A DNA stretch of 64,000 nucleotides from a virus. The stretch is taken from positions 186,001 to 250,000 of IMG/VR virus record IMGVR_UViG_3300023184_000024. The stretch is one strand, 5' to 3'. Shown here one piece after another: positions 15,837 to 51,900 of the stretch (the stretch's first letter is position 1; the number at the start of each line of letters is the position of its first letter). The notes below the pieces were generated by a model, which had not been told where the DNA came from, searched no databases, and saw nothing but the letters and a program-made list of their open reading frames with translations. The position numbers were made by a program, and so were the translations under genes.

Positions 15837-16781
15837 ATGTCTTTACCAACTACACCAAAAGTAAACTATCTGAACAATAGAGATATTCTTAAAGAAATAC
15901 ATTTAAGCAAAAACACATATTGCAGTTATCGTGATCCAGTTACTGATCACCAATACGACATTATTTTACCCAGCGTTTCTAAAATCAATGTCAGAACAAT
16001 AGCAGAAGCTCGCCGAAATCGTGCTGATCGACTCAAACGAGAAACCGGAACTCCGGTTGACCCCAAGAAAATTCCCAACACTGATTTGGTGTTTAGAATT
16101 TCTTGCTGGGATCATATTCCAATTGCTCCTAAAAAAGTTCCCAAAACACAGGTCAAAAAACGCAAGATTGAAGACATTCTGGAAATCGAAGATACGCCCG
16201 AAGATGATGTCATTGACGATATACCTGCACTTGCTGCCGTAGTTGACACAGCACATGTGCGTGTAAACTTTCCTCCTTTTTGGCAATATCGACTTGATGA
16301 AAATAAAACTCCGTTTCTAGTAGGAAAAAGTCACTGGAAGGGTGATTTAGAAACCGGTGAATACAGTCGTGAGCACGGTAACATGACTCGTAAATTAGCA
16401 CTGATGTTTATTAAATTATGTGAACGATATGCAACAAGGAGCAACTGGCGTGGATACACCTACAACGAAGAAATGCGAGGACAAGCCTTGCTACAACTCA
16501 GTCAAATTGGACTCCAGTTCGATGAATCAAAATCGCAGAACCCTTTTGCGTATTATACTGCCGCTATCACTAATAGCTTTACTCGTGTCTTGAACATTGA
16601 AAAGAAGATGCAGAACATCCGCGATGATATTTTAGAAATGAATGGTCTCAATCCAAGTTGGACTCGACAAAATGCGGCAAATGGCAACCGGTCTGGCCCA
16701 GTTACTACCACTTCCTACGATACCGCCACCGAAAGCGATGTTGATCCAGCGCCTGATAATATCACAGTTCCAGAAAAATGA
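15837..16781 (+). CDS. 55: Late transcription sigma factor gp55-like
   Basis: A 314-residue homologue of the T4 late sigma factor, which directs host RNA polymerase to TATAAATA-type promoters. The conserved C-terminal part is clear: MTRKLALMFIKLCERYA, the WRGYTYNEEMRGQALLQL stretch (region 2-like), then FDESKSQNPFAYYTAAITNS and a final IEKKMQNIRDDILEMNGLNP. The N-terminus VNYLNNRDILKEIHLSKNTY also looks family-typical. Between them lies a charged insertion (about residues 30-150) that makes the protein much longer than T4 gp55 (185). AGGAGG precedes the ATG. Its predicted target sites are seen before the virion genes in this window. Confidence 0.88.
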   Translation: MSLPTTPKVNYLNNRDILKEIHLSKNTYCSYRDPVTDHQYDIILPSVSKINVRTIAEARRNRADRLKRETGTPVDPKKIPNTDLVFRISCWDHIPIAPKKVPKTQVKKRKIEDILEIEDTPEDDVIDDIPALAAVVDTAHVRVNFPPFWQYRLDENKTPFLVGKSHWKGDLETGEYSREHGNMTRKLALMFIKLCERYATRSNWRGYTYNEEMRGQALLQLSQIGLQFDESKSQNPFAYYTAAITNSFTRVLNIEKKMQNIRDDILEMNGLNPSWTRQNAANGNRSGPVTTTSYDTATESDVDPAPDNITVPEK

Positions 16782-17704
16782 AATCCAAGTCTACGGTGAT
16801 TTTATACAACGGAGGATCGTATGGATCGTATCTGCACTGGCTGATTTATTCAATGACATTCGATGGCGAGTTATTTGAGCCGTTCACTAGCAAAGGAACC
16901 AGTCATGAATTTGGTCGATTGATCAAAGACGATCATGCACATCTAATTGGCTCGCCGACCATTGAAGAGTTGTTGGCCATGCCCAATGAGCAGATTCCGC
17001 CGTTGATAAAAATTCATCCAAAAACACAGCAAAGTGAAAGCTTGGTTGAGAATATCGAGTTGCTTTTAGAAAAATTTGAAAAATTAATCATAGTTTACCC
17101 GGACAAGAACTCATACCTACTAAACATCAACAATTATGTTTATAAGATTTGGGATGACTTATGGTCTGGAGCTCTTGGCCACATGCGCAAAGAAGATCTC
17201 TACAATAATTTTCCTATTGCACTCGATACACCCCTTGAAGACATACCCACGTGGATTATCAGAGAATATCTCAGCTACAACTTATTTGAATCCTGGGAAG
17301 ATCAAGTTGAGTGGTACCTCCCTCAACAGTATCAACATCCCGACTGCCACTATGTGTTTGTCAATGACTTGTTATACCAACCAATAAATACATTGAACAC
17401 AATCAAGCAGTTTGCAAACTTGTCTTGGGTGCGTAACCCTCAAGAAATATTGCCCTACCATGAAAAAAATCTTGTACTTCAGAAATACCTTGAGCAAGAT
17501 CACATTGCAAGAACAATATTAACTAATTTGATTGACAATGACTTTTGTTCTTGGGGCGCCGACGAAATTACTATCATCACCGAAGCATGGATACAAAAAG
17601 TTCTTAGAGATCACGGGTATAGTTTTAAATGCCACGGACTCAACCAATTTCCTTGCAACACAATCGACTTAACAAACCTAATAGAAAAACATGAATCTAT
17701 TTAA
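16778..17704 (+). CDS. Hypothetical protein, sulfotransferase-like N-terminus
   Basis: A 308-residue protein not firmly recognised. The N-terminus (residues 5-25, VILYNGGSYGSYLHWLIYS) resembles the phosphate-binding strand-loop-helix of sulfotransferase-like P-loop proteins. A Lys-Ile-His-Pro strand near residue 85 and an IIVYPDKNSYLLNINNY strand near 105 are also compatible with that fold. The C-terminus is Asp/Tyr-rich with a YVFVNDLLYQPINTLNTIK segment typical of similar phage hypotheticals. The start overlaps the gp55 stop (ATGA), and the end overlaps gp47 by 14 nt. Enzymatic function is unproven. Confidence 0.75.
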   Translation: MKSKSTVILYNGGSYGSYLHWLIYSMTFDGELFEPFTSKGTSHEFGRLIKDDHAHLIGSPTIEELLAMPNEQIPPLIKIHPKTQQSESLVENIELLLEKFEKLIIVYPDKNSYLLNINNYVYKIWDDLWSGALGHMRKEDLYNNFPIALDTPLEDIPTWIIREYLSYNLFESWEDQVEWYLPQQYQHPDCHYVFVNDLLYQPINTLNTIKQFANLSWVRNPQEILPYHEKNLVLQKYLEQDHIARTILTNLIDNDFCSWGADEITIITEAWIQKVLRDHGYSFKCHGLNQFPCNTIDLTNLIEKHESI

Positions 17705-18704
17705 AAAAGCTGCCATCTTCACTGACATCCATTTTGGACTAAAGTCAAACAGTCAACTGCACAACGATGACTGCTTGAACTTTATCAAATGGGCCACTGC
17801 CAAGGCCAAAGCCGAAGGCTGTGAAACTTGTTTGTTTCTTGGCGACTGGCACAATAACCGAGCCAGTTTAAATATTGTCACATTGAACTACAGCTTACAA
17901 GCACTGGAGCACTTAAATGCAAATTTTAATGACGTCTACTTTATTCCTGGGAATCATGACTTGTATTATCGCGACAAACGGGATATACAAAGCGTGGAGT
18001 GGGCAAAACATCTCCCAAACGTACATATATGTAACGATTGGTTCAACAGTGGCGATGTGGTTATCGCTCCTTGGCTGTGTGGCGATGATCACAAGCGCAT
18101 ACCTAAGCTGACAGGCAAGTACATGTTTGGGCACTTTGAGTTGCCTGGTTACTTGATGAATGCCATGGTGGAAATGCCGGACCATGGTGAGGTACGCAGA
18201 GAAGATTTTACGAACTTTGAACATGTGTTCACCGGTCACTTTCACAAACGTCAGACCAAAAAGAACATCACCTACATTGGCAATTGCTTTCCGCACAACT
18301 ACGCCGATGCCGGTGACGATGATCGCGGGCTTGCTGTACTAGAATGGGGCAAAGATCCTGTGTATCATGCATGGCCTGACCAACCTAGATATCGAGTTTA
18401 TAAATTAGGCAATGTAATTGACCATGCTGCCACACTCTTGGCGCCCGGTATGCATGTTCGTGTAGAACTTGACATCGAGATCAGCTACGAAGAAGCAAAT
18501 TTTATCAAAGAAACATTTATTAAACAATACAATCTAAGAGAGATGGCGCTTATACCTAGTAAAAATTCCGGGGTTGACACAGACATGTCGCCAGGGGAAA
18601 TTAAATTTGAAAGCGTTGATCAGATTGTCATTGATCAAATTACAAAAATTGAATCAAATTTTTATGATCCAAAGCTGTTGCTTTCCATATACCAATCATT
18701 ATGA
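17691..18704 (+). CDS. 47: Recombination endonuclease subunit gp47 (SbcD/Mre11-like)
   Basis: A 337-residue calcineurin-type phosphoesterase that pairs with gp46 in DNA end resection for recombination-dependent replication. The metal-binding motifs are in order: TDIHFG (D12, H14), GDWHNN (51-56), PGNHD (86-90), FGHFE (146-150) and TGHFHKR (181-187). Length equals T4 gp47 (339). It begins inside the end of the upstream gene (14-nt overlap) and its stop overlaps the next ATG (ATGA). Unusually, gp46 is not adjacent: five enzyme genes (about 4.3 kb) separate the two. Confidence 0.95.
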   Translation: MNLFKKAAIFTDIHFGLKSNSQLHNDDCLNFIKWATAKAKAEGCETCLFLGDWHNNRASLNIVTLNYSLQALEHLNANFNDVYFIPGNHDLYYRDKRDIQSVEWAKHLPNVHICNDWFNSGDVVIAPWLCGDDHKRIPKLTGKYMFGHFELPGYLMNAMVEMPDHGEVRREDFTNFEHVFTGHFHKRQTKKNITYIGNCFPHNYADAGDDDRGLAVLEWGKDPVYHAWPDQPRYRVYKLGNVIDHAATLLAPGMHVRVELDIEISYEEANFIKETFIKQYNLREMALIPSKNSGVDTDMSPGEIKFESVDQIVIDQITKIESNFYDPKLLLSIYQSL

Positions 18705-19372
18705 CAAACATAGAATCTCTGAGACGAACTGACATCACTGATTTAAAAGAACTGGGGTTACAGTTCAACGAGCCGTGGCAGGTGGTAGATCATTTTGAAA
18801 AATTAGTAGCAGGATTTTTTGGAGCACAATACGGTGTGGCCACTGATTGTTGTAGTCATGGTATTGAACTTTGTTTGCGTATACTTCCGCGCTCAGAAAA
18901 AAATGTTGTTGTCCCAACCCATACATATATGAGTGTGCCAATGACATTAGAAATTCTATCAATCCCATATGAATTATCAGATTTAAAATGGCAAGGTAGC
19001 TATAAGTTAGATCCATACCCGATCATTGATGCTGCCACAATGTGGATGCCAAATTCGTATGTTCCGGGATCGATGACCGTTATTAGTTTTCAATATCAAA
19101 AATATCTACCCATTGGCCGTGGCGGAATGATTTTGCTAGATGATGTTACAATGTACAATAGGTTACAACGATTGGTGCGCGATGGTCGGGATCGTACAAT
19201 CAATCATAGAATTGACAATGTCAACGAAATAGGTTTTCATTATCATATGATCCCCGAAGATGCCGCACGAGGAATAAAATTGTTTGACTTGCGCAAAGGT
19301 ACATCTTTTGCTGGATGGTCTTGGCAGGATTATACAAATTTAAAAGACAAAGATATTTTCAAGGAAAAATAA
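18701..19372 (+). CDS. DegT/DnrJ/EryC1-type PLP aminotransferase, short form
   Basis: A 223-residue protein of the DegT/DnrJ/EryC1/StrS family, which transaminates keto-sugars in amino-sugar and surface-glycan synthesis using PLP. The family features are seen: ATDCCSHGIELCLRIL (substrate/PLP phosphate loop, about 47-62), VVVPTHTYMSVP (69-80), PIIDAA with D110 for the PLP ring nitrogen, and SFQYQKYLPIGRGGM with K134 as the Schiff-base lysine. Usual family length is about 370. The C-terminal small domain is mostly missing, so it is a minimal or reduced version. No frameshift was seen and the frame ends cleanly 1 nt before the next gene. The specific substrate is unknown. Confidence 0.85.
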   Translation: MTNIESLRRTDITDLKELGLQFNEPWQVVDHFEKLVAGFFGAQYGVATDCCSHGIELCLRILPRSEKNVVVPTHTYMSVPMTLEILSIPYELSDLKWQGSYKLDPYPIIDAATMWMPNSYVPGSMTVISFQYQKYLPIGRGGMILLDDVTMYNRLQRLVRDGRDRTINHRIDNVNEIGFHYHMIPEDAARGIKLFDLRKGTSFAGWSWQDYTNLKDKDIFKEK

Positions 19373-19373
19373 T

Positions 19374-19886
19374 ATGGTTGTAGGGCACATTACTCCGTGT
19401 TGGGATACGCAACAAATCAAAGATTTGCAGTACAAGGCTGATTATTATCAAGACACTGAGCTTATTAAGAAATACGCTCAATCAGGTCACAGCATGGCCC
19501 ACATGACATTGTTCAACTACTTTGAACCAAATCCCATGCCCGAGGCTGCCAGTCAAATAAAAAAACATTTTGATCATCTCGCTAATACCAGCATTGCTAT
19601 TAATAAATTCACGCCCGGACAATACCTACCAGTGCATCATGATTTCTATGGCAAATTTAAATCTGTTCATCAGTTAGATGATGCTGCCAATGTCATGCGA
19701 ATTATTATTATGATAGAAGATTCAGTGCCTGGACAGATTTTGCAAGTCGAGGATACCTCCTGGTGTAAATGGGTAGCTGGAGACTGGATTGCCTGGCACA
19801 ATTCTGCTAAACATGCATTTTACAATTTTAGTATGGTTGATAGATATGCATGGCAACTAACAGGAACTGTTGATAATATATGTTAA
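19374..19886 (+). CDS. 2OG-Fe(II) oxygenase-like protein
   Basis: A 170-residue double-stranded beta-helix protein. The likely iron triad is H88 and D90 (PVHHDFYG) with H147 (NSAKHAFYNF), and R157 (MVDRYAWQLTG) is placed to bind 2-oxoglutarate. The arrangement resembles small aspartyl/asparaginyl hydroxylase-like and prolyl hydroxylase-like proteins common in T4-like phages. The substrate could be protein, sugar or a small molecule. It starts 1 nt after the DegT stop and overlaps the next gene by 7 nt, so it is in the same translational unit. Confidence 0.78.
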   Translation: MVVGHITPCWDTQQIKDLQYKADYYQDTELIKKYAQSGHSMAHMTLFNYFEPNPMPEAASQIKKHFDHLANTSIAINKFTPGQYLPVHHDFYGKFKSVHQLDDAANVMRIIIMIEDSVPGQILQVEDTSWCKWVAGDWIAWHNSAKHAFYNFSMVDRYAWQLTGTVDNIC

Positions 19887-21001
19887 GCAAACCAAGAATA
19901 TCAACGTATTACAGTGAGCTTGTTAACAGCATTGCTGTTAGATACGGCTATAAGTTTTTGCATCAATGGCGTATAGTTGACTATGATTACCGATTTCATA
20001 CATTTGCAAGTGAGTTAGCTAGCCTTAAAAAAGATACCTTTGCGCCTGAAGAAAAATTTCTAATAGAACATGCTGATGTAGAGTATTTTGTCAACGGATT
20101 TGGGTTTAGCATTGATAACTTCAATACCATGATTAGATCTTTAGACATTGACCCGTGTAGGTTTGTTATTCTAACCAATCATTATTGCAGTACACAAAAG
20201 TGGAATAGTTATTGTTCAGATCCTAATAACCAGTTTCATGTAATCGAAACTCCTCTTTCAACATTGTTGGTTAACCACGATTACAAACCTGTTACATCAG
20301 CAGAAGAGTGTCAGTATCGATTTTGCTCAATGCTAGGGAAAAGTCGAGTACACAGAGATATTTTGGCCAAGTATTTTATTTCACAAAATCTTGTTAAGGA
20401 CAACTTGATTTCAGTTAATTTGTGGCCCGAACGAGCATCTAGTAGAACAAAAACCAGACAAGACGAACAAAAGTATATTAACAATTTATTTTTTTTACGT
20501 ACAGATCCGTTTGCTCGCATCAACGAACACTGGATACACGATCAATCATTGCTAGACATTGAAAAATTTGTTGTGATCAACGGACCATTGACCAATGATA
20601 TACTTAACTCTGCCACTAAGTCGCTTGCTCCTGAAGAATTGTATAAAAAAATATTTGTTGATATTGTAGCCGAGAGCGTTTACAACTATCCTCATGCATA
20701 CATTTCAGAAAAAACAATTAGACCTATTATATCTTCTCGACCGTTTATCATAGTTGGTGCTCCTGGTACATTGGCATGGTTACATCAACTTGGTTTCAAA
20801 ACATTTGACCAATACTGGGATGAAGACTACGATCAATGCACAGATTCCAATCAAAGATTTCATAAAATTTTTAAACTAATCGAAACCATCAACTCATGGC
20901 CTATTGCAAAATGTCAAGAAATTCTTACCTCTATGATGGAAATTTTTAAACACAACATTGAAGTCTACAACCATTGGGTAGAAAATCCGTTACATGTCTA
21001 A
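19880..21001 (+). CDS. Glycosyltransferase family 10-like protein
   Basis: A 373-residue protein whose C-terminal third has the nucleotide-sugar site pattern of GT10 (alpha-1,3-fucosyltransferase-like) enzymes: AYISEKTIRPIISSRPFIIV at 273-292, then GAPGTLAWLHQLGFKTFDQY. The SEKT segment corresponds to the family's conserved Glu-Lys motif. The N-terminal 200 residues are divergent and hold no motif I recognise. It lacks a signal peptide or membrane segment, so it should act in the cytoplasm. Being next to a DegT aminotransferase suggests an amino-sugar or deoxy-sugar glycan pathway, which is inference. Confidence 0.72.
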   Translation: MLSKPRISTYYSELVNSIAVRYGYKFLHQWRIVDYDYRFHTFASELASLKKDTFAPEEKFLIEHADVEYFVNGFGFSIDNFNTMIRSLDIDPCRFVILTNHYCSTQKWNSYCSDPNNQFHVIETPLSTLLVNHDYKPVTSAEECQYRFCSMLGKSRVHRDILAKYFISQNLVKDNLISVNLWPERASSRTKTRQDEQKYINNLFFLRTDPFARINEHWIHDQSLLDIEKFVVINGPLTNDILNSATKSLAPEELYKKIFVDIVAESVYNYPHAYISEKTIRPIISSRPFIIVGAPGTLAWLHQLGFKTFDQYWDEDYDQCTDSNQRFHKIFKLIETINSWPIAKCQEILTSMMEIFKHNIEVYNHWVENPLHV

Positions 21002-21833
21002 GCCTGTATTGCCGTTTGTTGAATCGATGATTATTCGGCCTTGCAATTTATCGTGTGAGGGTTGCACTACATTTTCTGATTTAAAATGGCAGGGTTATGT
21101 CACATGGGAACAGGGCAAACAGTCCTTGTCTCCTTGGGTGCAAAGATTAAACATCGAAGCATGGGGAGTCATGGGAGGGGAACCTTTTATGAATCCAGAG
21201 TTGGCAGATTGGCTTGTTGGTGTTCGCAGTCTGATGCCAGACACACAAATTAGATTAACCACAAACGGATTACTTGTAGAAAAAAATTGGCATGTAGTTG
21301 AGTTAATGCAACGGTTAGGCAATTGCATATTAAAACTTAGTCAGCATATAGAAGATACTTCAATTGACTCTATGGTAGATCGACTGTACTCTCAATGGAA
21401 CTGGTCCCCGGTACATGAGTACGGATTAAATCGGTTGGTCACTGACAACAAATTTAAATTTCAACTATCAAACACTTCTACATTTTATAAAACATTCAAA
21501 GGCAAGTACGAAAATATGTTGCCCCACAACAATACACCAGCAGACGCTTTTAAACATTGTTGTCAACAACGATGCCCAATGATTTACAAAGGTAGATTAT
21601 TTAAATGTGGCACCGTGGCTCTGACTCCCGAATTGCTGGATAGATTTGATCGTCCAAATTGGGACATGTGGCAAGACTATATTGTCCCAGGACTGGGTGC
21701 TGATTGTAATGATCGAGATCTAGAGCAATTTATTAATAACTTTGGGCGGCCTAACTCTCTTTGCAGACAATGCCCAACCGACCAAGATCATGACTCAGTA
21801 ATTGAACACAAAATAACAGTAACAAGGAAATAA
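20994..21833 (+). CDS. Radical SAM protein with C-terminal cysteine cluster
   Basis: A 279-residue radical SAM enzyme. The 4Fe-4S site is C17-x3-C21-x2-C24 (RPCNLSCEGCTTF), followed by the GGEP motif at 61-64 that contacts SAM. Further cysteines at C189, C190, C194, C205, C238, C257 and C260 resemble a SPASM/Twitch auxiliary cluster region (NxxCRQCP end), as in enzymes that modify peptides or small molecules. The start overlaps the upstream stop by 8 nt. The substrate is unknown. It is one of three radical SAM genes in this operon. Confidence 0.88.
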   Translation: MSKPVLPFVESMIIRPCNLSCEGCTTFSDLKWQGYVTWEQGKQSLSPWVQRLNIEAWGVMGGEPFMNPELADWLVGVRSLMPDTQIRLTTNGLLVEKNWHVVELMQRLGNCILKLSQHIEDTSIDSMVDRLYSQWNWSPVHEYGLNRLVTDNKFKFQLSNTSTFYKTFKGKYENMLPHNNTPADAFKHCCQQRCPMIYKGRLFKCGTVALTPELLDRFDRPNWDMWQDYIVPGLGADCNDRDLEQFINNFGRPNSLCRQCPTDQDHDSVIEHKITVTRK

Positions 21834-21834
21834 C

Positions 21835-23007
21835 ATGTATCAAGTTTATCAACATTGGGACCCACTAAACGTTTGTCTTGTGGGCAAAACATACCCTCCT
21901 GAGTTTTATTCGTGGGTTGCCGACACTAATACTCGTCGACGGTTTGAAAAGTTAGCCGAAGAAACTGAAGAAGACTATCAGAATCTCATTGGGCTGTTAA
22001 GCAACAAATTTGGAGTTAAGATTTTTCGACCAGAGTTTCCTGAAGATTTGAACACGTTGTACATTAACGGCAAATGGGTTCAACCGCCCACTGCCCCTCG
22101 CGATTATTTTTTAATGATACAAGACAAATTCTGGGTTCCTAAAATCCCCAATGCCAGTCATGCATGGTCAGTGTTTTATCGTCAACACAAACAAAGTTGG
22201 TGGCCGGACTATGTTCGCCCAGAAGATTTTTATCAAGCCTTGCCCGAGTATGCCATCGAGATCCAGAAAAAATTTGAATTGTTTAAACACACCGATCAAC
22301 TGCATCTTGATGCCAAGTTAAATTTTTATAATCATGTTACTGACCATATCACAGCACAAGGAAATACCATTGAGTACACTGATCTTGATTTTATCAACGG
22401 ATGTTTTGTGAGCCGTCTTGGGCAAGATCTGTATTTTGCCACTCAAACGTATCATGACGACAAACAAGGTATTCTAAACAAGGTCAATGGGCTATTTCCG
22501 CACACACGTAATCATGTAGTAAACTCTGGTGGACACGGTGATGCGGTATACTGCCCAGTAACCCCGGGATTGATCATCAGTTTAAATGATGTTCCAACCT
22601 ATGCAGACACATTCCCAGACTGGGAAGTGGTGTATCTCCCACCGAGCAACTATTCTCACATGAGAGAGTTTGAGCACAGCATGAAGCGCAACAAAGGTCG
22701 ATGGTTCATGCCCGGATTTGAGCAAGACAATAATCTAACCAATATGGTAGACCACTACTTTGACGAATGGGTTGGGCAAGTTTCTGAAACTGTGTTTGAT
22801 GTTAACATTCTAATTGTTGATCCTAAAAATATTGTAGTCAGCACTCACAATGATTTAGTGGAGCAGGCCTGTGCCAGACACGGCATAGAGGTACACGTTG
22901 TGCCATTTAGGCACAAATATTTTTGGGATTGCGGTATACACTGTGTCACCAACGACCTTGATAGATCTGGCGCCAAGGAAAACTTTTTTCCTAATCGTAC
23001 CGATTGA
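21835..23007 (+). CDS. Amidinotransferase-superfamily protein (glycine amidinotransferase-like)
   Basis: A 390-residue protein of the guanidino-group-modifying superfamily (glycine and inosamine amidinotransferases, arginine deiminase). The catalytic signature is visible: APRD at 87-90, GGHGDAVYCP at 232-241 with H234 as candidate base, and FWDCGIHCVTNDL at 363-375 with C370 as candidate nucleophile. The last resembles the GGGFHCWT site of mitochondrial glycine amidinotransferase. Such an enzyme would move or remove an amidino group on an arginine-like donor. The gene starts 1 nt after the radical SAM stop. Its reaction is not predictable. Confidence 0.78.
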   Translation: MYQVYQHWDPLNVCLVGKTYPPEFYSWVADTNTRRRFEKLAEETEEDYQNLIGLLSNKFGVKIFRPEFPEDLNTLYINGKWVQPPTAPRDYFLMIQDKFWVPKIPNASHAWSVFYRQHKQSWWPDYVRPEDFYQALPEYAIEIQKKFELFKHTDQLHLDAKLNFYNHVTDHITAQGNTIEYTDLDFINGCFVSRLGQDLYFATQTYHDDKQGILNKVNGLFPHTRNHVVNSGGHGDAVYCPVTPGLIISLNDVPTYADTFPDWEVVYLPPSNYSHMREFEHSMKRNKGRWFMPGFEQDNNLTNMVDHYFDEWVGQVSETVFDVNILIVDPKNIVVSTHNDLVEQACARHGIEVHVVPFRHKYFWDCGIHCVTNDLDRSGAKENFFPNRTD

Positions 23008-23009
23008 TA

Positions 23010-23038
23010 TTGCTTTCTGCCAAAGATTCAGCTATTAT
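23010..23038 (+). promoter_or_regulatory. Sigma70-like promoter before gp46
   Basis: TTGCTT at 23010-23015 and TATTAT at 23033-23038 with a 17-nt spacer, in the only sizeable gap (39 nt) of the operon upstream of 28951. It would allow gp46 and downstream genes to be expressed apart from the upstream part. Confidence 0.45.
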
Positions 23039-23046
23039 AGTATGAT

Positions 23047-24810
23047 ATGATCAAAATTAAAAATATAACTGTTAAAAACTTTTTATCTGTGGGCAATGCA
23101 ACACAGGCTGTAAATTTTGATCGTAACGATCTAACATTGGTGCTTGGAGAAAATCTAGATCTTGGCGGAGACGGTAGTCGCAATGGTACTGGCAAAACCA
23201 CGTTGATTAATGCACTTAGCTACGCATTGTACGGCAATGCCATCAGCAATATTCGCAAAGACAATCTTATAAACCGAACCAATGGTAAATCCATGTTGGT
23301 TAGTTTAGAGTTTAGTGTGCAAGGAAAAGAGTACAAAGTCGAACGTGGGCGTAAACCCAATGTTCTTAAATTCTATATCAACAACGAAGAACAATCGTCT
23401 GAGGACAATGCACAAGGCGACAGCAGAGAAACACAGGATGCAATTGAACGTGTTCTCGGTATGAGTCACGACATGTTCAAACATGTACTAGCGTTGAACA
23501 CTTACACTGAACCGTTTTTAAGTTTAAAATCCAATGATCAACGTGCAATAATTGAACAGTTGTTAGGTATTACTCAGCTCAGTGAACGAGCAGATCGTAT
23601 CAAAGAGTTGAATCGAGTAACCAAGGACGCTATCTCTCAAGAAGAAATGCGCATACGAGCACAGCAAGAAGCTAATAAGCGAATTGAAGAACAGATAGAA
23701 GCTATAAAACGCAGACAAACATTGTGGAAAACCAAAAATGCCAATGACATTGCTGACCTAACCACCGCACTAATTTCGTTGCAAAATATAGACATTGACG
23801 TCGAGGTGCAAGCACACCGAGACCACAAGATATGGGAACAAAAACGCAAAGAGATCAACGAGTTGGCATCTGCAATTAGTCGTGCCAAACTTGATCTAGG
23901 ACGTGAAGAAAAAAACATTGCTAAGATAGTCAAAGATATTTCTGCATTAAAAAACCACACTTGCCATGCTTGTGGTCAAGACTTGCACGATTCAAAGCAT
24001 GAGGAAGTGTTAGCCGGCAAACAACAAGACTTGGAATCTGCAACAACCAGTGAACTTGCATTCTCTACTGAATTAGCTGTGTTGGAATCTACACACAAAG
24101 AGTTGGGAGTTCTAGGAAAACCTCCTAAAATGTTCTATGACAAAGAAGAAGATGCTATTCAGCATCGAGCTACTTTAGAAAATTTACAAAAACAAATTGC
24201 AGACAAATCCAATGATGTAGATCCTTACGGTGAACAAATTGACGAAATGCAAAATCAAGCACTAGTTGTGGTCACGTATGATGTGTTAAACGAGTTAACC
24301 AGACTACAAGACCATCAGGATTTCTTACTCAAGCTGTTGACCAACAAAGACAGTTTTATCCGCAAAAAAATTATTGAGCAAAATCTCAGCTACCTTAATA
24401 ATAGATTAACACATTATCTTGATCGCATCGGACTACCACATCAAGTTGTTTTCCAAACTGACTTAACTGTTGAAATTACAGAGCTGGGTCGAGATTTAGA
24501 TTTCGACAACCTGAGCAGAGGCGAGCGCAATAGATTGATCCTGTCGATGTCGTGGGCATTCAGAGACGTTTGGGAAAGCTTGTACTATCCAATTAATCTC
24601 TTGTTCATTGACGAACTAGTCGATTCTGGTATGGACACGCAGGGTGTTGAAAATAGCTTATCTTTACTAAAGAAAATGAGCAGAGAACGCCACAAGAGTA
24701 TCTGGTTAGTAAGCCACAGAGATGAACTAGCAGGACGAGTAGAGAATATACTTCGTGTAATTAAAGAGAACGGATTTACTACATACAATACAGATGTGGA
24801 TGTATTATAA
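23047..24810 (+). CDS. 46: Recombination endonuclease subunit gp46 (SbcC/Rad50-like)
   Basis: A 587-residue SMC-type ATPase that forms the resection complex with gp47. The Walker A region is at about 34-52 (GENLDLGG then RNGTGKTT, with K50). Two coiled-coil arms flank the zinc hook CHACGQ (C306-x2-C309). The signature helix LSRGERNRLILSM precedes Walker B LLFIDELVDSGMD near 517-529, followed by the D-loop and the SHRDE switch. Length is close to T4 gp46 (560). It follows its own promoter-like sequence and abuts the next gene with no gap. Confidence 0.95.
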   Translation: MIKIKNITVKNFLSVGNATQAVNFDRNDLTLVLGENLDLGGDGSRNGTGKTTLINALSYALYGNAISNIRKDNLINRTNGKSMLVSLEFSVQGKEYKVERGRKPNVLKFYINNEEQSSEDNAQGDSRETQDAIERVLGMSHDMFKHVLALNTYTEPFLSLKSNDQRAIIEQLLGITQLSERADRIKELNRVTKDAISQEEMRIRAQQEANKRIEEQIEAIKRRQTLWKTKNANDIADLTTALISLQNIDIDVEVQAHRDHKIWEQKRKEINELASAISRAKLDLGREEKNIAKIVKDISALKNHTCHACGQDLHDSKHEEVLAGKQQDLESATTSELAFSTELAVLESTHKELGVLGKPPKMFYDKEEDAIQHRATLENLQKQIADKSNDVDPYGEQIDEMQNQALVVVTYDVLNELTRLQDHQDFLLKLLTNKDSFIRKKIIEQNLSYLNNRLTHYLDRIGLPHQVVFQTDLTVEITELGRDLDFDNLSRGERNRLILSMSWAFRDVWESLYYPINLLFIDELVDSGMDTQGVENSLSLLKKMSRERHKSIWLVSHRDELAGRVENILRVIKENGFTTYNTDVDVL

Positions 24811-25437
24811 ATGGACTCAATAATTGAACTTGATAGCTGGATTACGCTGAAAGAAATAGACGATCTATTGGCCATTGCCAACACATGGGACAAAGTTGAA
24901 TACACTGCAAAAGAAGGAAAATTTCCTGGAAAATTGGTTGCAACACAAAGTTGGCATACCTGGGATAACAATGATGATCTTGGAAAAATTTTGCATGACC
25001 GTATGCAGTCAGTTATTGGCAATCACCGGGTAGTCGAATTGGACTATGTAGAGCTATACTTGCCGTGGGATATACATTGCGATTATGAACGTCCATTCCC
25101 GACACCTAACCCTTATTATAGTTTTTTGATTCCTTTACAATCCTTTCCTAGTAGAACTATATTTTTTGAACAAATCGCAGACTACAATGATTTTTGGAAA
25201 TACAAACAACACAACAGGCATGTTGAAAATTGTGTTGACCTAGAATTTTGGAACAATAATCTAAGTCACTGCTGGGACGAAGACCGACTATACTTGTCGT
25301 TACAGCATGTTAGCAAGCAATGGATTGCCGGCGATGCTATATGCTTCAAACGTGATATCTTACACAGCAGTGATGATTTTTATGTACGTCATCCGGGACC
25401 AAAGAAATTTTTACAAATTTTAACCGACACAGTATGA
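24811..25437 (+). CDS. 2OG-Fe(II) oxygenase-like protein
   Basis: A 208-residue protein with a probable double-stranded beta-helix. The HxD motif is H89-C-D91 (PWDIHCDYERP), with the distal histidine at H185 (KRDILHSSDDF) and Lys198/Lys199 near the position where Arg or Lys binds 2-oxoglutarate. GDAICFKRDILHSS matches the end-of-barrel motif of phage phytanoyl/prolyl-hydroxylase-like proteins. It is unrelated in detail to the oxygenase-like gene at 19374, so the operon has two different ones. It starts immediately after the gp46 stop and overlaps the next ATG by 4 nt. Confidence 0.75.
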   Translation: MDSIIELDSWITLKEIDDLLAIANTWDKVEYTAKEGKFPGKLVATQSWHTWDNNDDLGKILHDRMQSVIGNHRVVELDYVELYLPWDIHCDYERPFPTPNPYYSFLIPLQSFPSRTIFFEQIADYNDFWKYKQHNRHVENCVDLEFWNNNLSHCWDEDRLYLSLQHVSKQWIAGDAICFKRDILHSSDDFYVRHPGPKKFLQILTDTV

Positions 25438-25955
25438 ACATTCTTATAACTGGTACAAAAGGATTGGCTGAAGCATTGGGAAGATTATTGTCACAAGACA
25501 ACCACGTTACTTGTGTCAGCAAATCCAATGGATACAACATTGCTGATATCATGACATGGGGACCAAAATTTTATCACTACGATGTTTGTATTAACTGTTG
25601 TTATGATACGTGGCATCAAGTTGGTGTGTTGGAACAATTTTATTATGCATGGCGCAATGATTCATCAAAGCAAATTATAAACATTGGTTCAATTATCAGT
25701 GACTATACTCGCACAGACGTGACTACTGAGCACGAATATCTAGCATATCGTGTTCATAAACAGGCATTACAAACTGCATTTAACAAACTTAGTAGATCAG
25801 CCAAATGCGATATTAAACTAATCAATCCAGGTGCAATTGACACTGATATGATAAAGCACATGGACTGTGTTAAAATGTCTCCGGAGTGGTTGGCTACCCA
25901 AATTAAAAATGTTATGTCGCAAACATGGTTAAAGAGAGTTGACTTATGGCAATAA
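25434..25955 (+). CDS. Short-chain dehydrogenase/reductase (SDR)
   Basis: A 173-residue Rossmann-fold oxidoreductase. The NAD(P) loop is TGTKGLAEALG (6-16), the catalytic set is S86 (NIGSI), Y105 and K109 (YRVHK), and the family's PG motif follows (INPGAIDTDM, about 129-138). It is shorter than the usual 240-260 residues: the segment between the loop and S86 and the C-terminal part are reduced, but all catalytic residues are present. The start overlaps the previous stop (ATGA). Next to oxygenase and radical SAM genes it probably contributes a redox step. Confidence 0.85.
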   Translation: MNILITGTKGLAEALGRLLSQDNHVTCVSKSNGYNIADIMTWGPKFYHYDVCINCCYDTWHQVGVLEQFYYAWRNDSSKQIINIGSIISDYTRTDVTTEHEYLAYRVHKQALQTAFNKLSRSAKCDIKLINPGAIDTDMIKHMDCVKMSPEWLATQIKNVMSQTWLKRVDLWQ

Positions 25956-27049
25956 ATTGGCAATACTATCATTGGCACTTGGAACTCAGCGCAGTTTGTG
26001 CTCTTCAATGTCCTCGCTGTCCAAGAACAGAACATCCAGATACTCCTTGGTTAAATTACAGCATGAGTTTGGATTTTTTTAAATCCTTTATGACTCCTGA
26101 CATGTTAAAAAACAAAGTAAAAAGATTGACCATGTGCGGAGATGTAGGTGATCCAATTTACTGCAAAGATTTCCTTGACATATACAAATATATCAAAGAA
26201 GTCAATCCTAAAATACATGTGTATACTATTACCAACGGCAGCAATCGAAAAGCCGAGTGGTGGCAGGCATTTGCACAAGTTGCCAACGAGTATGACACAA
26301 TAAATTTCAGCATCGATGGGTACGATCAACTCAGCAATGCAATGTATCGTGTTGGCAGTAACTGGCAATCTATCATGACTGGTATTAGCACTCTTAGAAA
26401 ATACAATACAAAAATTCTAATCAACTGGGCAATGATTGTTTTTAAGTTCAATCAAAACCATATTGGTAAAATACAAGCATTGGCTAGTGACCTAGGAATG
26501 GATGCTTTGCAAATTACAAAAAGCACCAAGTTTGGCAGCAAGTACGGAGAAGCATATCTTGGCGTTAATGATTATCTTGAGCCAGACAGCAAATGGATTT
26601 CACCAAGTCATCGTTACGAACGTTCGATGATTAACATCAGTGGTCGACAACCACTTAATCAAGAGTTTATAATACAAAACAAGCAACAATACATTGCTAT
26701 CAAGCAAGAGTATCATAACAAACCAATCACTCCGCTGTGCGAAATTGGCAATAGAGGACTGTATGTCAATGCCGAAGGTGTATTATTTCCATGCAGTTGG
26801 ACTAGTTTTCCTTATAAAAGTTTGAGTAATGGTGTAAAAACCATAGAATGGAAGGATAGCTTTTTTGCTATGTACAGAGAGCAAATGAACTTACGTACAC
26901 GATCGTTGGACGAAATACTCAACGATCCACTATGGGACAAGTGCAGCCAAGGTTGGCATGACGAGTCTAAGACTTGGGTAGAATGCCAGCAAAAATGTAA
27001 TACCAGTATTGTTGATGTAAATTATGCAGTGGGTTGGGAAACCAATTAA
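25946..27049 (+). CDS. Radical SAM protein with SPASM-like C-terminus
   Basis: A 367-residue radical SAM protein. The cluster motif is C18-x3-C22-x2-C25 (VCALQCPRCPRTEH). A typical MCGDVGDPIYC strand follows near 60-75, in place of GGEP, and an FSIDG strand lies around 117-121. C-terminal cysteines C265 (CEIGNRGLYVNAEG), C283 (FPCSW) and a later CSQGWH...CQQKC group suggest auxiliary iron-sulfur binding. Similar SPASM proteins modify peptides or act in cofactor and sugar pathways. It overlaps both neighbours and belongs to the same operon. Confidence 0.87.
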   Translation: MAINWQYYHWHLELSAVCALQCPRCPRTEHPDTPWLNYSMSLDFFKSFMTPDMLKNKVKRLTMCGDVGDPIYCKDFLDIYKYIKEVNPKIHVYTITNGSNRKAEWWQAFAQVANEYDTINFSIDGYDQLSNAMYRVGSNWQSIMTGISTLRKYNTKILINWAMIVFKFNQNHIGKIQALASDLGMDALQITKSTKFGSKYGEAYLGVNDYLEPDSKWISPSHRYERSMINISGRQPLNQEFIIQNKQQYIAIKQEYHNKPITPLCEIGNRGLYVNAEGVLFPCSWTSFPYKSLSNGVKTIEWKDSFFAMYREQMNLRTRSLDEILNDPLWDKCSQGWHDESKTWVECQQKCNTSIVDVNYAVGWETN

Positions 27050-27465
27050 TGAAATTCTACCTGGGCCTAGAACATCCAACACTTAACAGAGTACGGTTAC
27101 TTGTTGATCAACGAGAAATCACAGACTGCGAAGTAGTATCTCAATGGGAATCAACTGTTGATGTTACTAGAACAACCAGCATTGAAGTTTGGTTTTGGCC
27201 TTGGGGTATTAAACCATTGTTAAGAGTTAATGGGCACTTAGTAGATTTTAGTTTGGCAAAAGTAGATCAATTTGATCATATGTTAAAGTTCAACTTGACC
27301 AAAGACTTTTTTAATCTATACGGCCAAGAGTTAGTGACCAGTAGAATTGAGTCACAGTTCAAGAATGGTGTTGTTGACAAAGACGTTTACGATTCAGTCA
27401 TTGGATTTGGACAGCACCACTATGATTTGGTTGAAAAAATAAAACGACGATTAGTTAATGGATAA
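27049..27465 (+). CDS. Hypothetical protein between two radical SAM genes
   Basis: A 138-residue protein starting MKFYLGLEHPTLNRVRLLVD. The start at 27049 is preferred because its ATG overlaps the upstream stop (TAATG). An in-frame start at 27034 would lie within the upstream gene. No cysteine cluster or known motif is seen. The N-terminal half looks beta-rich (VEVWFWPWGIKPLLRVNGH type) and the C-terminal half helical. It could be an accessory or partner of the flanking radical SAM proteins; that is only a positional guess. Confidence 0.72.
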   Translation: MKFYLGLEHPTLNRVRLLVDQREITDCEVVSQWESTVDVTRTTSIEVWFWPWGIKPLLRVNGHLVDFSLAKVDQFDHMLKFNLTKDFFNLYGQELVTSRIESQFKNGVVDKDVYDSVIGFGQHHYDLVEKIKRRLVNG

Positions 27466-28951
27466 CAAAAAGTTTGCGTTTGTAACTGTACCTGTGCTAG
27501 AGCTATGGAATCCATCGGCTGCATTGGCTGCGCTTACTCCAATGATAAAACGCCACGGACTTGAGCCACAACTGATTGACATAAACCTAGAGCTCAACGA
27601 AATGTTGTCCGAGGCTGATTGGGATCAATTCAACGATTGGGCAAGTATGGTCACTGATCAAATTGACGATCAGTTGATCATCCGTGTGCTAGACATAGTA
27701 GATCAACACTTGTCTACTATAGAGTGCGGTTGGTTGGCTTTCAGTGTATTTTCATTTTACAGCGTTAGGCCAACGGCACTAATATTATCCCATCTAGGAA
27801 AAAACAGCAGTCGACAACATAAAATATTGTTAGGCGGCAGCGGTACAATGAGTAGCATGGCAGAATTTGGTCAAAAACCTTTTGGCCAGTGGTGTTTAGA
27901 AAACAATCTTGCAGACTACTGTATATTTGGCGAAGGTGAACAGGCCTTAGATAATCTTCTCAGCGGCAATGACCAATATCCCGGAATCAACAATACCAAT
28001 TTTACACAGATCACCAATCTTGATACATTGCCGTTGCCTGAATATTCAAGTTTTGATTTTTCTAGGTACAAAGACAGTCGAGTGTTATTAACTGGTAGTC
28101 GTGGATGTGTTAGACATTGCACATTCTGTGACATTGACTTGACTTGGCCAAAATACACTTACCGCAGTCCACACTTGATTGTTGAAGAGATGCGGCGACA
28201 TGTGCACGAATTGGGAGTAAGTAAATTTGAATTCACTGACAGTCTCATCAATGGATCAGTGTCAAACTGGAACAAATTCAACGAGTTGCTAATTGAGGCC
28301 AAGGCCAAGGACCCAGCAATGAAAGATGTCAGTTACATGGGTCAGTTTATTTGCAGGAATCGCACTAGTATGCATTCAAGCACCTATGAACTCATGCACT
28401 ACGCTGGATGTAAACAAATACATGTGGGCATCGAACACTTCAGTGAACGAGTTCGTTATCACATGAAGAAAAAATTCAGTGACGCAGACATTGACTATCA
28501 CTTGGAAATGAGCAGTCGTTGGCACATTCCAAATATTTTTTTGATGATTGTAGGTTATCCAACTGAAACCTTGCAGGATCATCAACAACAATTAAAAGCA
28601 ATAGAAAAATATCAAATTTATGCACAAACTGGCGCTATCTTTATGCTACGATGGGGTCTTACCATGCATATCTACGAAAACACTCCGTTGACAAAAATGT
28701 CAAACGAACTACAGTTGTCGTTTACAGACAATGCATTTCATGACAGCGTTTTCAACTGGGTCGCTGGTGTTAACCCGACTCTGGACTTGGCGGAACGTAT
28801 CCGTCGCAGAGTTGAACTACACGAGCTCAGTGCAAAATTAGGGTATTCAATGCCCAACACCAGAAAAGAACTAGCAAGTTTATTACAGCTCACAGAACAA
28901 ATGCACCTTATTAAACCACCACCAAAAACTATTCAAATAATACCAGCTTAA
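27458..28951 (+). CDS. B12-binding-type radical SAM protein
   Basis: A 497-residue class with an N-terminal cobalamin-binding-like Rossmann domain (about 5-175; LAALTPMIKRHGLEPQLIDI, then a GGSGTMS strand turn and CIFGEGEQALDNLL) followed by a radical SAM barrel. The cluster motif is C217-x3-C221-x2-C224 (GCVRHCTFCDID). After it come KFEFTDSLINGS and HVGIEHFSERVRYHMKKKF, as in this family. Such enzymes methylate or rearrange unactivated carbons, ring-fuse or thiolate. A DxHxxG cobalamin-ligand motif is not obvious, so cobalamin use is uncertain. It ends the metabolic part of the operon. Confidence 0.87.
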   Translation: MDNKKFAFVTVPVLELWNPSAALAALTPMIKRHGLEPQLIDINLELNEMLSEADWDQFNDWASMVTDQIDDQLIIRVLDIVDQHLSTIECGWLAFSVFSFYSVRPTALILSHLGKNSSRQHKILLGGSGTMSSMAEFGQKPFGQWCLENNLADYCIFGEGEQALDNLLSGNDQYPGINNTNFTQITNLDTLPLPEYSSFDFSRYKDSRVLLTGSRGCVRHCTFCDIDLTWPKYTYRSPHLIVEEMRRHVHELGVSKFEFTDSLINGSVSNWNKFNELLIEAKAKDPAMKDVSYMGQFICRNRTSMHSSTYELMHYAGCKQIHVGIEHFSERVRYHMKKKFSDADIDYHLEMSSRWHIPNIFLMIVGYPTETLQDHQQQLKAIEKYQIYAQTGAIFMLRWGLTMHIYENTPLTKMSNELQLSFTDNAFHDSVFNWVAGVNPTLDLAERIRRRVELHELSAKLGYSMPNTRKELASLLQLTEQMHLIKPPPKTIQIIPA

Positions 28952-29010
28952 ATTTTTACAATTCACAAACATAAGATAACTATAGCACAAGGACAAACTC
29001 CAACACATTC

Positions 29011-29445
29011 ATGACATGGCTTTATCAAAACACCCCAGTTGAGACATTGCCCGAAGATTGTATAGGATTTGTTTATCTAATCACAAATACAACCAGCTCA
29101 CGCAAATACATAGGCAAAAAACTAGCAAAATTCTCCAAGACTACACAACGAACAGTTAAACTCAAGAATGGTACCAAGAAGAAAAAAAAGATTCGCAATA
29201 AAGTTGATTCAGATTGGCGAGACTATTATGGGTCTAGTCCTGAACTTAGCAAGGATGTGGAACTTTTTGGCAAAGATAATTTTATCAGAGAAATACTTTA
29301 TTATTGTAAATCAAAATCAGAATGTAGCTATATTGAGGCAAGAGAACAATTTTCAAGGCGTGTATTAGAATCATCAGATTATTACAACGGGCATATTCAA
29401 GTCCGTGTTCATGGTTCTCATATCAAAGACAAACTAAGCAATTAA
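29011..29445 (+). CDS. GIY-YIG nuclease-like protein
   Basis: A 144-residue protein with the GIY-YIG core: GFVYLITN (19-26) and KYIGKK (32-37), a basic linker rich in Lys, then DWRDYYGSS and an IEAREQF helix with a candidate catalytic Glu. Phage members include Seg-type homing endonucleases and structure-specific nucleases. The basic Lys/Arg segment (about 50-65) suggests DNA contact. No Shine-Dalgarno is evident close to the ATG. It lies 59 nt after the last radical SAM gene and just before the structured RNA candidate, so a homing-element link is possible. Confidence 0.78.
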   Translation: MTWLYQNTPVETLPEDCIGFVYLITNTTSSRKYIGKKLAKFSKTTQRTVKLKNGTKKKKKIRNKVDSDWRDYYGSSPELSKDVELFGKDNFIREILYYCKSKSECSYIEAREQFSRRVLESSDYYNGHIQVRVHGSHIKDKLSN

Positions 29446-48903: not shown

Positions 48904-48934
48904 GATGTTAGAAGCCTTAACGTTGGAGAATATA

Positions 48935-51900
48935 ATGGCCGTAACACGAATTAAAAATAATCAGATCACCGATACCACAATTAATGCGGCAGCCAAACTT
49001 GCCGACTATACAGTTACTGGTGGTAAGCTAGCAAATAACATAACCTATGGTTCAGACTGGACCATATCGGGAAATTTAACCGTTAACGGTACAACCAGCA
49101 CAATTGATACCATTGACTTGATCGTTGAAGATCCGTTGATGTTGTTGGCAAAAAATCAAACAGGAACTCCTGCACTTGATATTGGTTATATTGGTAAACG
49201 TGGATCAGCTACAAACATCGCATTCGTCTGGGATGAAAGTTCACAGAGATTTGTAACTGTTTTCACAGACAGTGAAAATACTAACACAGTTATTACTATT
49301 AATAGCTACGCCAGTTTTCAAACTTTAAATCTCACAGCACAAGACGGCAATTTTTCAGGAAATATCACAGTAACCGGCACCAGCGGCTTCACAGGAAATA
49401 CCACCATTGGTAATATGAGTGTGTCGGGTAATAATAAAACAATTGACATGGGACTCAACATTGTAGGCAATGTTCTTGACCCAGTAGGTGCGCAAGACGC
49501 TGCCACAAAAAGCTATGTTGACGGCATTGTCAGCGGCGGTATTACCATTGAAGATGACACTGCCAACACAACAGCACTGGCACTTGACGGAACTCTGGTA
49601 TTAAATGGCACAGCAAATGAAGTGACAGTGACTATCAGTGCTGTTGATACAGTGACATTTGGATTGCCAGACAGTATCAGCATTTCAGGTAACGTAAGTG
49701 CTGGTAACATAAGTGCTACAAACACAATATCTGCCGGTGACATAACTTCTGGCAATATTATTCCTACTGCCAACGTAACATATAATTTAGGTAGCCCAAC
49801 AGCTCAATGGAAGAGCTTGTACATCAGTGGCAACACAATTTACATGAGAGATGTTCAGCTACAACAACCTTCTGCCAGTGCCAATACGTTACAAGTTACC
49901 ACTGCTGATGGTACAACGTTGGGTGATTTTAAAACAGGCGGACTAACAGCCACAGGAAATGCCAATGTGGGCAATTTGGGCACTGCTGGCGTAGTGACTG
50001 CAACTGGCAACGTAACGGGTGGCAATGTTGGTACAGGCGGTACTGTGACTGCAACTGGCAACGTAACGGGTGGCAATGTTGGTACAGGCGGTACTGTGAC
50101 TGCAACTGGCAACGTAACGGGCGGCAACGTCGGCACAGGCGGTACTGTGACCGCAACTGGTAATGTAACAGGTGGCAACGTAGGTACTGCTGGATCAGTG
50201 ACAGCCACAGGCAATGTTAGCGGTGGTAATATGAGCACAGGTGGTACTGTGACCGCAACTGGCAATGTAGCTGGCGGCAATTTGACCACAGCTGGAGCAA
50301 CAAGTACAGCTACATTGACAGCTACAGGAAATGCCAATGTGGGCAATTTGGGCACAGGCGGTACGGTAACAGCAACTGGCAATGTAACCGGCGGTAATAT
50401 GAGCACAGGTGGCACTGTGACAGCAACTGGCAACGTAAGCGGTGGCAATGTGACCACAGTTGGTGCTGTAACTGCAACAGGTACAGTGACTGGTGGCAAT
50501 GTAAGCACAGGCGGTACTGTAACAGCAACTGGTAATGTAAGCGGTGGCAATGTGACCACAGGTGGTGCTGTAACTGCAACTGGCACAGTAACTGGTGGCA
50601 ATTTGACCACAGCAGGATTGACCAGTACTGCCACATTATCAGCCAGTGGCAATGCCACCGTGGGCAATTTGGGTACGGGCGGTACTGTGACAGCAACTGG
50701 TAATGTAAGCGGTGGCAATATAACAACTGGCGGAGCAGTAGATGCAACTGGCACAGTAACTGGTGGCAACTTGACCACAGCAGGATTGACCAGTACTGCC
50801 ACATTATCAGCCAGTGGCAATGCTAACGTGGGTAATTTGGGCACTGCTGGTACGGTGACTGCTACAGGTAACGTTGCAGGTGGCAACATCAGCACAGGTG
50901 GCACTGTGACTGCTACAGGTAATGTTGCAGGCGGCAACGTAACCACAGGTGGTACTGTGACTGCTACCGGTACAGTGACTGGTGGTAATGTAAGCACAGG
51001 TGGTACTGTGACTGCTACAGGTAATGTAAGCGGTGGTAATTTGGCCACAGGCGGCCAGGTAACAGCAACTGGCAACATTAACGGCGGCAATGTTAATACT
51101 TCTAGTGTTAACAACACAGGCGCATTAACTATAACCACAACAACTGGTAACCTTAATTTAGAACCAACTGGCAACATCGTATTAAACAACAAGTACATTA
51201 ATGGCGTAAATCAGCCAGTGCAAGACAACGATGCGGCCAGCAAGATCTATGTTGACAACATGGTGTCAACTCAAATAGCATACCACCAAGCAGTGACAGC
51301 GGCCACAACAGGCACACTGGCTACAGCCACAGGTGGTACAGTTACATATAATAATGGAACTGCTGGTGTTAATGCTACACTGACCACAACTGGTGCATTT
51401 AATTTAATCGACACAGCCAACGTTCAAACAGTTGGCACCCGTATTCTAGTTAAAAACGAAGCCAATGCTGCCTGGAACGGGGTATACACATACGCTAATA
51501 CAACAGCCATTGTTCGTTCCACAGACACCGACGAATACGGTCCAAACAGTTCTGAAGAATTGAGTATCAATGATTACTTCTTTGTCACCGGTGGTAGCAC
51601 CAACGCTGGTAGCGCATGGATTTGTGACGCACCGACTGGTGTAATCACTTTTGGTACCAGCAACATTCAGTTCGCTCAGTTTAGTAGCAGCCAAACATAC
51701 AGTGCTGGCAATGGCGTCAGCATCAACGGAACAGTGCTTTCTGCCAAAGTTGACGAAATTACCACATCATTTGATGGACTAGGCAATATCATTGTCAAAG
51801 CATCAGCACAATTAACAACACCAAACATTGGTGCGGCAACCGGTACATCGCTGACAGTAACAAGCGGGGTCACAGCAAATACTATAAGTGCTAATTTAAC

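Follow-up and report, generated by a model that had tools for sequence, protein, structure and literature searches.

It is near certain that the gaps around the recombination genes gp47 and gp46 serve as exchangeable cargo slots in the jumbo-phage lineage represented here by a 64,000-nt stretch of DNA (the window, to which all coordinates refer unless otherwise given), located at positions 186001–250000 of the 352,754-bp virus record IMGVR_UViG_3300023184_000024. The best explanation of what the window carries at this place, held at a probability of about 0.55, is an exchangeable cargo site where the five enzyme genes that separate gp47 from gp46, termed module 1, make or add amino or guanidino sugars on a glycan, and where the gap downstream of gp46 holds a second set, module 2. 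Module 1 consists of a short sugar-aminotransferase-like enzyme (mini-DegT), a small 2-oxoglutarate (2OG) oxygenase (2OG_A), a GT10-like glycosyltransferase (GT), a radical S-adenosylmethionine (SAM) enzyme and an amidinotransferase (AmT).

Gene arrangement and cargo slots

The genes form a packed run on the + strand from 15837 to 29445, in the order late sigma factor, a 308-amino acid (aa) gene, gp47, five enzyme genes, gp46, five more genes and a GIY-YIG nuclease. Genes overlap by 4–10 bases, abut or are separated by single bases; wider spacers are found ahead of gp46 (39 bases) and between the B12-type radical SAM and nuclease genes (59 bases). The initial annotation correctly described enzyme genes that split gp47 and gp46, five between them and five after, all present and tightly packed. 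The run is longer than it proposed, extending from the sigma factor at 15837 to the end of the nuclease at 29445, and among the five genes after gp46 the enzyme assignment is firm for three, weak for one (2OG_B, by motif only) and absent for one hypothetical protein.

Three slots are distinguished: slot A is the gap between the sigma factor gene and gp47, slot B that between gp47 and gp46, and slot C that between gp46 and the nuclease gene. The left edge of slot A is a gp55-type late sigma factor (15837..16781, +); its homologues, mostly 57–79% identical, precede gp47 in most loci, and the gene at the matching place in phage Cassandra is annotated as a sigma factor for late transcription. The SbcD-like nuclease subunit gp47 (17691..18704, +; PF00149) also has an annotated homologue in Cassandra. 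Between slots B and C lies the SbcC-like subunit gp46 (23047..24810, +; PF13476, SMC_N), and the closest isolates by this gene are PA5oct-like Pseudomonas jumbo phages, with 51% identity. A SegE-type GIY-YIG nuclease (29011..29445, +; PF19835, E=3.6e-33) forms the right edge of slot C and is present in 66 of 89 gp46 loci, contig ends having cut off some of the remainder. A near-identity DNA search of phage records found nothing matching the query.

Slot content was compared in 80 gp46 loci kept of at least 595. That gp47 and gp46 normally lie close together, as the initial annotation had it, is borne out by Cassandra, which is PA5oct-like: there sigma factor, gp47 and gp46 are consecutive with no cargo, gp47 and gp46 overlapping. 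Over 75 environmental loci the slot B gap ranges from 0 to 4,346 bp, the largest being the window's own; in 26 of them the two genes abut. Slot C ranges from 43 to 5,477 bp over 76 loci and is empty in 21 of them, and slot A is empty in 40 of 61 loci. On a quick gp46 tree with 24 open forks, 20 filled/empty changes are required for slot B (filled in 44 loci, empty in 24), which equals the mean of shuffled labels; the starred branches alone force 16. Occupancy therefore turns over too fast to track phage descent. AmT, present within slot B in nine loci, needs eight changes on this tree. The CxxxCxxC motif, a proxy for radical SAM enzymes, is found in 68 of 176 slot open reading frames (ORFs; 39%) vs 20 of 525 ORFs outside the slots (4%), the latter including virion genes.

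In several related loci (among them L043, L048, L053 and L055) gp46 itself has ∼105 extra residues (692–695 aligned columns vs 587).

An assembly join is unlikely, because three independent contigs display matching gene orders. The order sigma factor-gp47-DegT-2OG_A is also found in contig L174 (DegT 62% and 2OG_A 48% identity), gp47-GT-radical SAM-AmT-gp46 in L081, and gp46-SDR-radical SAM/SPASM-x-B12 radical SAM-GIY in L076, SDR denoting a short-chain dehydrogenase/reductase. All slot B junctions save that between 2OG_A and GT are seen in other contigs.

Enzymes of module 1

The amidino- and amino-sugar chemistry proposed for module 1 is suggested by two of its enzymes, because the AmT profile is nearest StrB1 and mini-DegT is nearest sugar aminotransferases. 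AmT (21835..23007, +) belongs to the StrB1/GATM family by full-length homology. A 31-member profile matches StrB1 (1bwd, E=1.5e-87), HsvA (5wpi) and GATM (1jdx) over full length. Residues H234, D236 and C370 are invariant in the 31 sequences and align with 1bwd at its H-D and H-C motifs. Of 69 AmT loci, 44 have a GT within two ORFs of AmT (near vs far ORFs, odds ratio 44). In a tree of AmT sequences, weak in that it has long branches and 23 open forks, slot B copies are not a single clade (six changes). AmT-GT pairs are also observed away from gp46, in four related contigs (L086, L088, L096, L105), near gp32-like, RecA-like and DNA polymerase B genes.

Mini-DegT (18701..19372, +; PF01041, E=1e-12) resembles pyridoxal phosphate (PLP)-dependent sugar aminotransferases. 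Its PLP lysine (K134) and an aspartate (D110) are invariant in a 54-member alignment. The AlphaFold model has a predicted local distance difference test (pLDDT) score of 93.5, and Foldseek matches it to sugar aminotransferases, among them AtS13, ArnB and perosamine synthase, with template modelling (TM) scores normalized by target of 0.35–0.42. The protein has only 223 aa, ∼150 aa below its solved relatives, and lacks the full-length DegT/DnrJ/EryC1/StrS fold of about 370 residues; it is classed as a short relative. In genome contigs a single match was found, in a metagenome-assembled genome, by search patterns that differed from those of the viral-contig scan, for which reason no restriction of the family to viruses is claimed. 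A homologue with 37% identity is present at 461779–462351 of LR756502.1, a 642-kb uncultured phage record.

2OG_A (19374..19886, +; weak PF05118) is a small oxygenase resembling Asp/Arg hydroxylases. The HxD...H residues H88, D90 and H147, together with R109, are invariant across 22 relatives, and the protein is 43% identical to an annotated 2OG-Fe(II) oxygenase of the Synechococcus phage S-SCSM2R. The GT (19880..21001, +) has a predicted GT-B fold; the AlphaFold pLDDT is 77.8, the top Foldseek matches are mostly GT-B enzymes including a GT10 fucosyltransferase, and the sole profile matches in the PDB are fucosyltransferases, all weak. In slot B of four related loci (L092, L106, L114, L137) the GT10-like gene is two adjacent ORFs of ∼180–210 aa, and each half is conserved between loci at 35–55% identity. 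The radical SAM enzyme of module 1 (20994..21833, +) scores above cut-off for PF04055, has the motif CNLSCEGC at residue 17 and is 27.5% identical to a radical SAM enzyme of S-SCSM2R.

Module 1 as a recurring set

The five enzyme types of module 1 recur in S-SCSM2R (PQ898602), a cyanophage that is not a near relative, in the order GT-GT25-GT-DegT-radical SAM-GT-2OG-amidinotransferase-GT2. Like the window, S-SCSM2R has a short DegT (45% identity to that of the window), a small 2OG enzyme, a radical SAM enzyme, an amidinotransferase and GTs together; unlike the window, it has them within a glycosyltransferase region, in another gene order and with no adjoining module 2. Genes for KdsA/KdsB and further GTs are ∼17–20 kb upstream of this cluster. 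Two S-SCSM2R amidinotransferases match AmT, the closer one being ∼20 kb upstream and the one within the cluster a weak match. Part-sets are found in slot B of relatives, namely GT with AmT (L106, L137), GT, radical SAM and AmT (L081), and DegT with 2OG_A followed by the contig end (L174).

Neighbours of mini-DegT were counted in 80 viral loci, with near defined as within four ORFs (600 genes) and far as seven or more ORFs away (539 genes). Near vs far counts are 60 vs 8 for GT10-like genes, 55 vs 0 for GT25, 39 vs 9 for nucleoside diphosphate-sugar epimerases, 32 vs 6 for AmT and 31 vs 5 for 2OG_A, and a hexapeptide transferase is likewise enriched. These families and neighbours suggest that module 1 probably acts on a glycan.

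A possible pathway can be proposed on this basis. The DegT-type enzyme would aminate a keto-sugar nucleotide, and the StrB1-type amidinotransferase would shift an amidino group from arginine to the sugar amine. The radical SAM and 2OG enzymes may oxidize the sugar or rearrange it; its attachment to a host surface glycan or to the virion would fall to the GT-B enzyme. Placed in the recombination operon, the cargo would be expressed together with replication genes. Exchange of cargo would probably occur by recombination in the conserved genes on either side, perhaps aided by the SegE-type nuclease. The guanidino-sugar product, the host surface or virion target, the expression timing and the nuclease-driven exchange are all inferred. 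Middle-phase co-expression, which the initial annotation stated for the island genes, is likewise something that we can only infer; promoter and T4 late-promoter scans gave a signal not clearly above that of shuffled sequences.

Several points weigh against this explanation. The activity of mini-DegT is not certain, as the protein is ∼150 residues short though the lysine and aspartate are kept. The fold match of the GT is weak, with a best E=2e-3. Neither the rSAM1 nor the SPASM-type radical SAM family is enriched beside mini-DegT in viral contigs, and because of this the evidence for a share of radical SAM enzymes in module 1 comes from S-SCSM2R and part of the AmT loci. The ORFs compared in the neighbourhood enrichments belong to related loci that share ancestry, and the p values are indicative only. 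Slot B alone has no sugar-nucleotide synthase, and no glycan context is seen for module 2 itself.

Alternative explanations

A single dedicated pathway for all ten genes, as envisaged in the initial annotation, is rejected, since the genes form modules that occur separately and the filling of slots changes fast across the gp46 tree. This raises the question of whether the slots simply gather unrelated beneficial genes, the ten being a chance assembly without a common pathway. Slot occupancy as scattered as shuffled labels, the separate occurrence of modules 1 and 2, and the presence in related loci of other slot cargo, namely AMP-binding, TctC and DUF6071 proteins, are all compatible with such an assembly. 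It is nevertheless unlikely, as five matching enzyme types recur in S-SCSM2R, AmT-GT pairing is strong, and all 13 SDR genes in gp46 loci adjoin a radical SAM/SPASM gene.

Sugar, modified nucleotide and small molecule had all been offered as products. Sugar or glycan decoration is favoured here, and the other two are disfavoured in the forms of DNA hypermodification and of a ribosomally synthesized and post-translationally modified peptide (RiPP). Enzymes that hypermodify phage DNA bases against restriction, with the GT glycosylating the modified base, would fit the position of the genes among replication and recombination genes and the GT-B fold, since T4 beta-glucosyltransferase is among the weak fold matches; phage GTs that modify DNA are known (cited in PMC12619734). 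This is improbable, given that sugar-nucleotide enzymes are among the neighbours of the mini-DegT family and that the 352,754-bp record, possibly incomplete, yielded no thymidylate-synthase-fold gene (PF00303, base hydroxymethylase). Equally improbable is the production of a RiPP, or of another small molecule directed at the host or competitors, by the radical SAM/SPASM and B12-type radical SAM enzymes. Weak NCBIfam matches to RiPP maturases and C-methyltransferases point in that direction; against it, the genes overlap or abut with at most 59 bases between them, too little for a separate precursor gene (one that overlaps or lies farther away is possible), and no peptidase or exporter family is among the family matches of the island. 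Auxiliary metabolism, in which AmT would use host arginine to form guanidinoacetate or some other free guanidino compound, is the least probable, as the match of AmT to the arginine:glycine amidinotransferase GATM (E=2e-63, 219 bits) is outscored by that to StrB1 (298 bits) and AmT is often paired with a GT.

Module 2 and other genes

Module 2, an SDR gene with a radical SAM/SPASM gene and often a B12-type radical SAM gene, lies in slot C. The first gene in this slot encodes a putative 2OG-oxygenase-like protein, 2OG_B (24811..25437, +), identified by an HxD motif at residue 89; there is no family match in Pfam, NCBIfam or PHROG, and ten family members were found among the loci examined. It is followed by a short SDR (25434..25955, +) with NCBIfam SDR matches down to E=2e-6 and YxxxK at residue 105, and by the radical SAM/SPASM enzyme (25946..27049, +; PF04055, E=1.5e-9; weak SPASM; CALQCPRC at residue 18). 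The 13 gp46-locus cases in which these two genes adjoin include some near-copies of each other. In two places, L004:5138–6448 and L255:17620–18693 (−), a SPASM domain stands before, not after, the radical SAM domain.

The small hypothetical protein (27049..27465, +) is listed as an ORF from TTG at 27034, ATG at 27049 being the likelier start. It has no family match and one other homologue, adjoining the B12-type radical SAM gene in L011. The last gene of the module encodes the B12-type radical SAM enzyme (27458..28951, +; PF04055, E=4.5e-14; CVRHCTFC at residue 217). Its best NCBIfam scores, none of which reaches the cut-off, are mostly with B12-dependent radical SAM families, and it has no match among phage records. 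It shares a slot with SDR and radical SAM/SPASM genes in the window and in L011, L065, L076 and L092. Stepwise radical SAM and SDR action is known from aminoglycoside enzymes; by analogy, a single substrate is probably handled first by the radical SAM/SPASM enzyme and then by the SDR of module 2, and the B12-type enzyme may methylate.

Slot A contains the hypothetical 308-aa protein (16778..17704, +), which has a weak sulfotransferase-like look and no match in Pfam, NCBIfam or PHROG. A sulfotransferase identity was considered and not confirmed: the 14-member family alignment has no PDB match, and a weak Sulfotransfer_1 match is found in one member alone.

The whole record has 16 radical SAM places, 11 GT10-like places, four epimerases and three AmT genes, two of four AmT places joining into one gene. 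A second enzyme island (record G000:C1:149688–169613, locus L255) has an epimerase, a full-length DegT, GT10-like genes, an amidinotransferase, a carbamoyltransferase and at least five radical SAM genes. The window also has an ORF of 3,166 aa at 48905–58405 (+).

Comparison with known systems

In CP220 and CPt10, two phages of Campylobacter, five radical SAM genes stand together with a putative glycine amidinotransferase in a block that is interchangeable and of unknown product (PMC2853527). Whether the island is a common, characterized cluster in other phages was a question raised in the initial annotation; the CP220/CPt10 block shows that this is partly so. These phages are, like that of the window, T4-related, and the window likewise combines three radical SAM genes and a GATM-like amidinotransferase with slot turnover. 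The CP220/CPt10 block has nucleotide-sugar transferases as well. The CP220 block differs in having no annotated DegT or 2OG gene, and no gp46/gp47 is annotated within the 35-kb region of CP220 examined; sequence matches to the window are partial and of low identity.

Homing endonuclease gene (HEG)-islands are nuclease genes adjoining exchangeable cargo in phages (Barth et al., 2023; PMC10448857). The window similarly has a nuclease gene at the edge of exchangeable cargo, but the GIY-YIG nuclease occurs also where slots are empty, and a homing role here is putative. In pelagimyophages, radical SAM cassettes and GTs are found in a hypervariable host-recognition island between conserved genes (PMC7029224); unlike the site in the window, the pelagimyophage one lies between VrlC and gp14 in the structural region and has tail fibres. 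The gp47/gp46 site and the defined five-enzyme set differ from these known systems.

Significance

Core replication genes are indicated as cargo sites with fast turnover, and the radical SAM/amidinotransferase blocks of T4-type phages, long unexplained, can be tied to a likely glycan role. The recurring five-gene set is now defined for assay of its chemistry and purpose. Perhaps the gp47/gp46 operon serves jumbo phages as a place where glycan-decorating cassettes are quickly swapped, among them a viral guanidino-sugar pathway with aminoglycoside-type enzymes and a phage-enriched mini sugar aminotransferase; this broader proposal is tentative and somewhat doubtful. Guanidino sugars, if made, would be an unusual phage-coded change of the host or virion surface, with relevance to superinfection exclusion and recognition.

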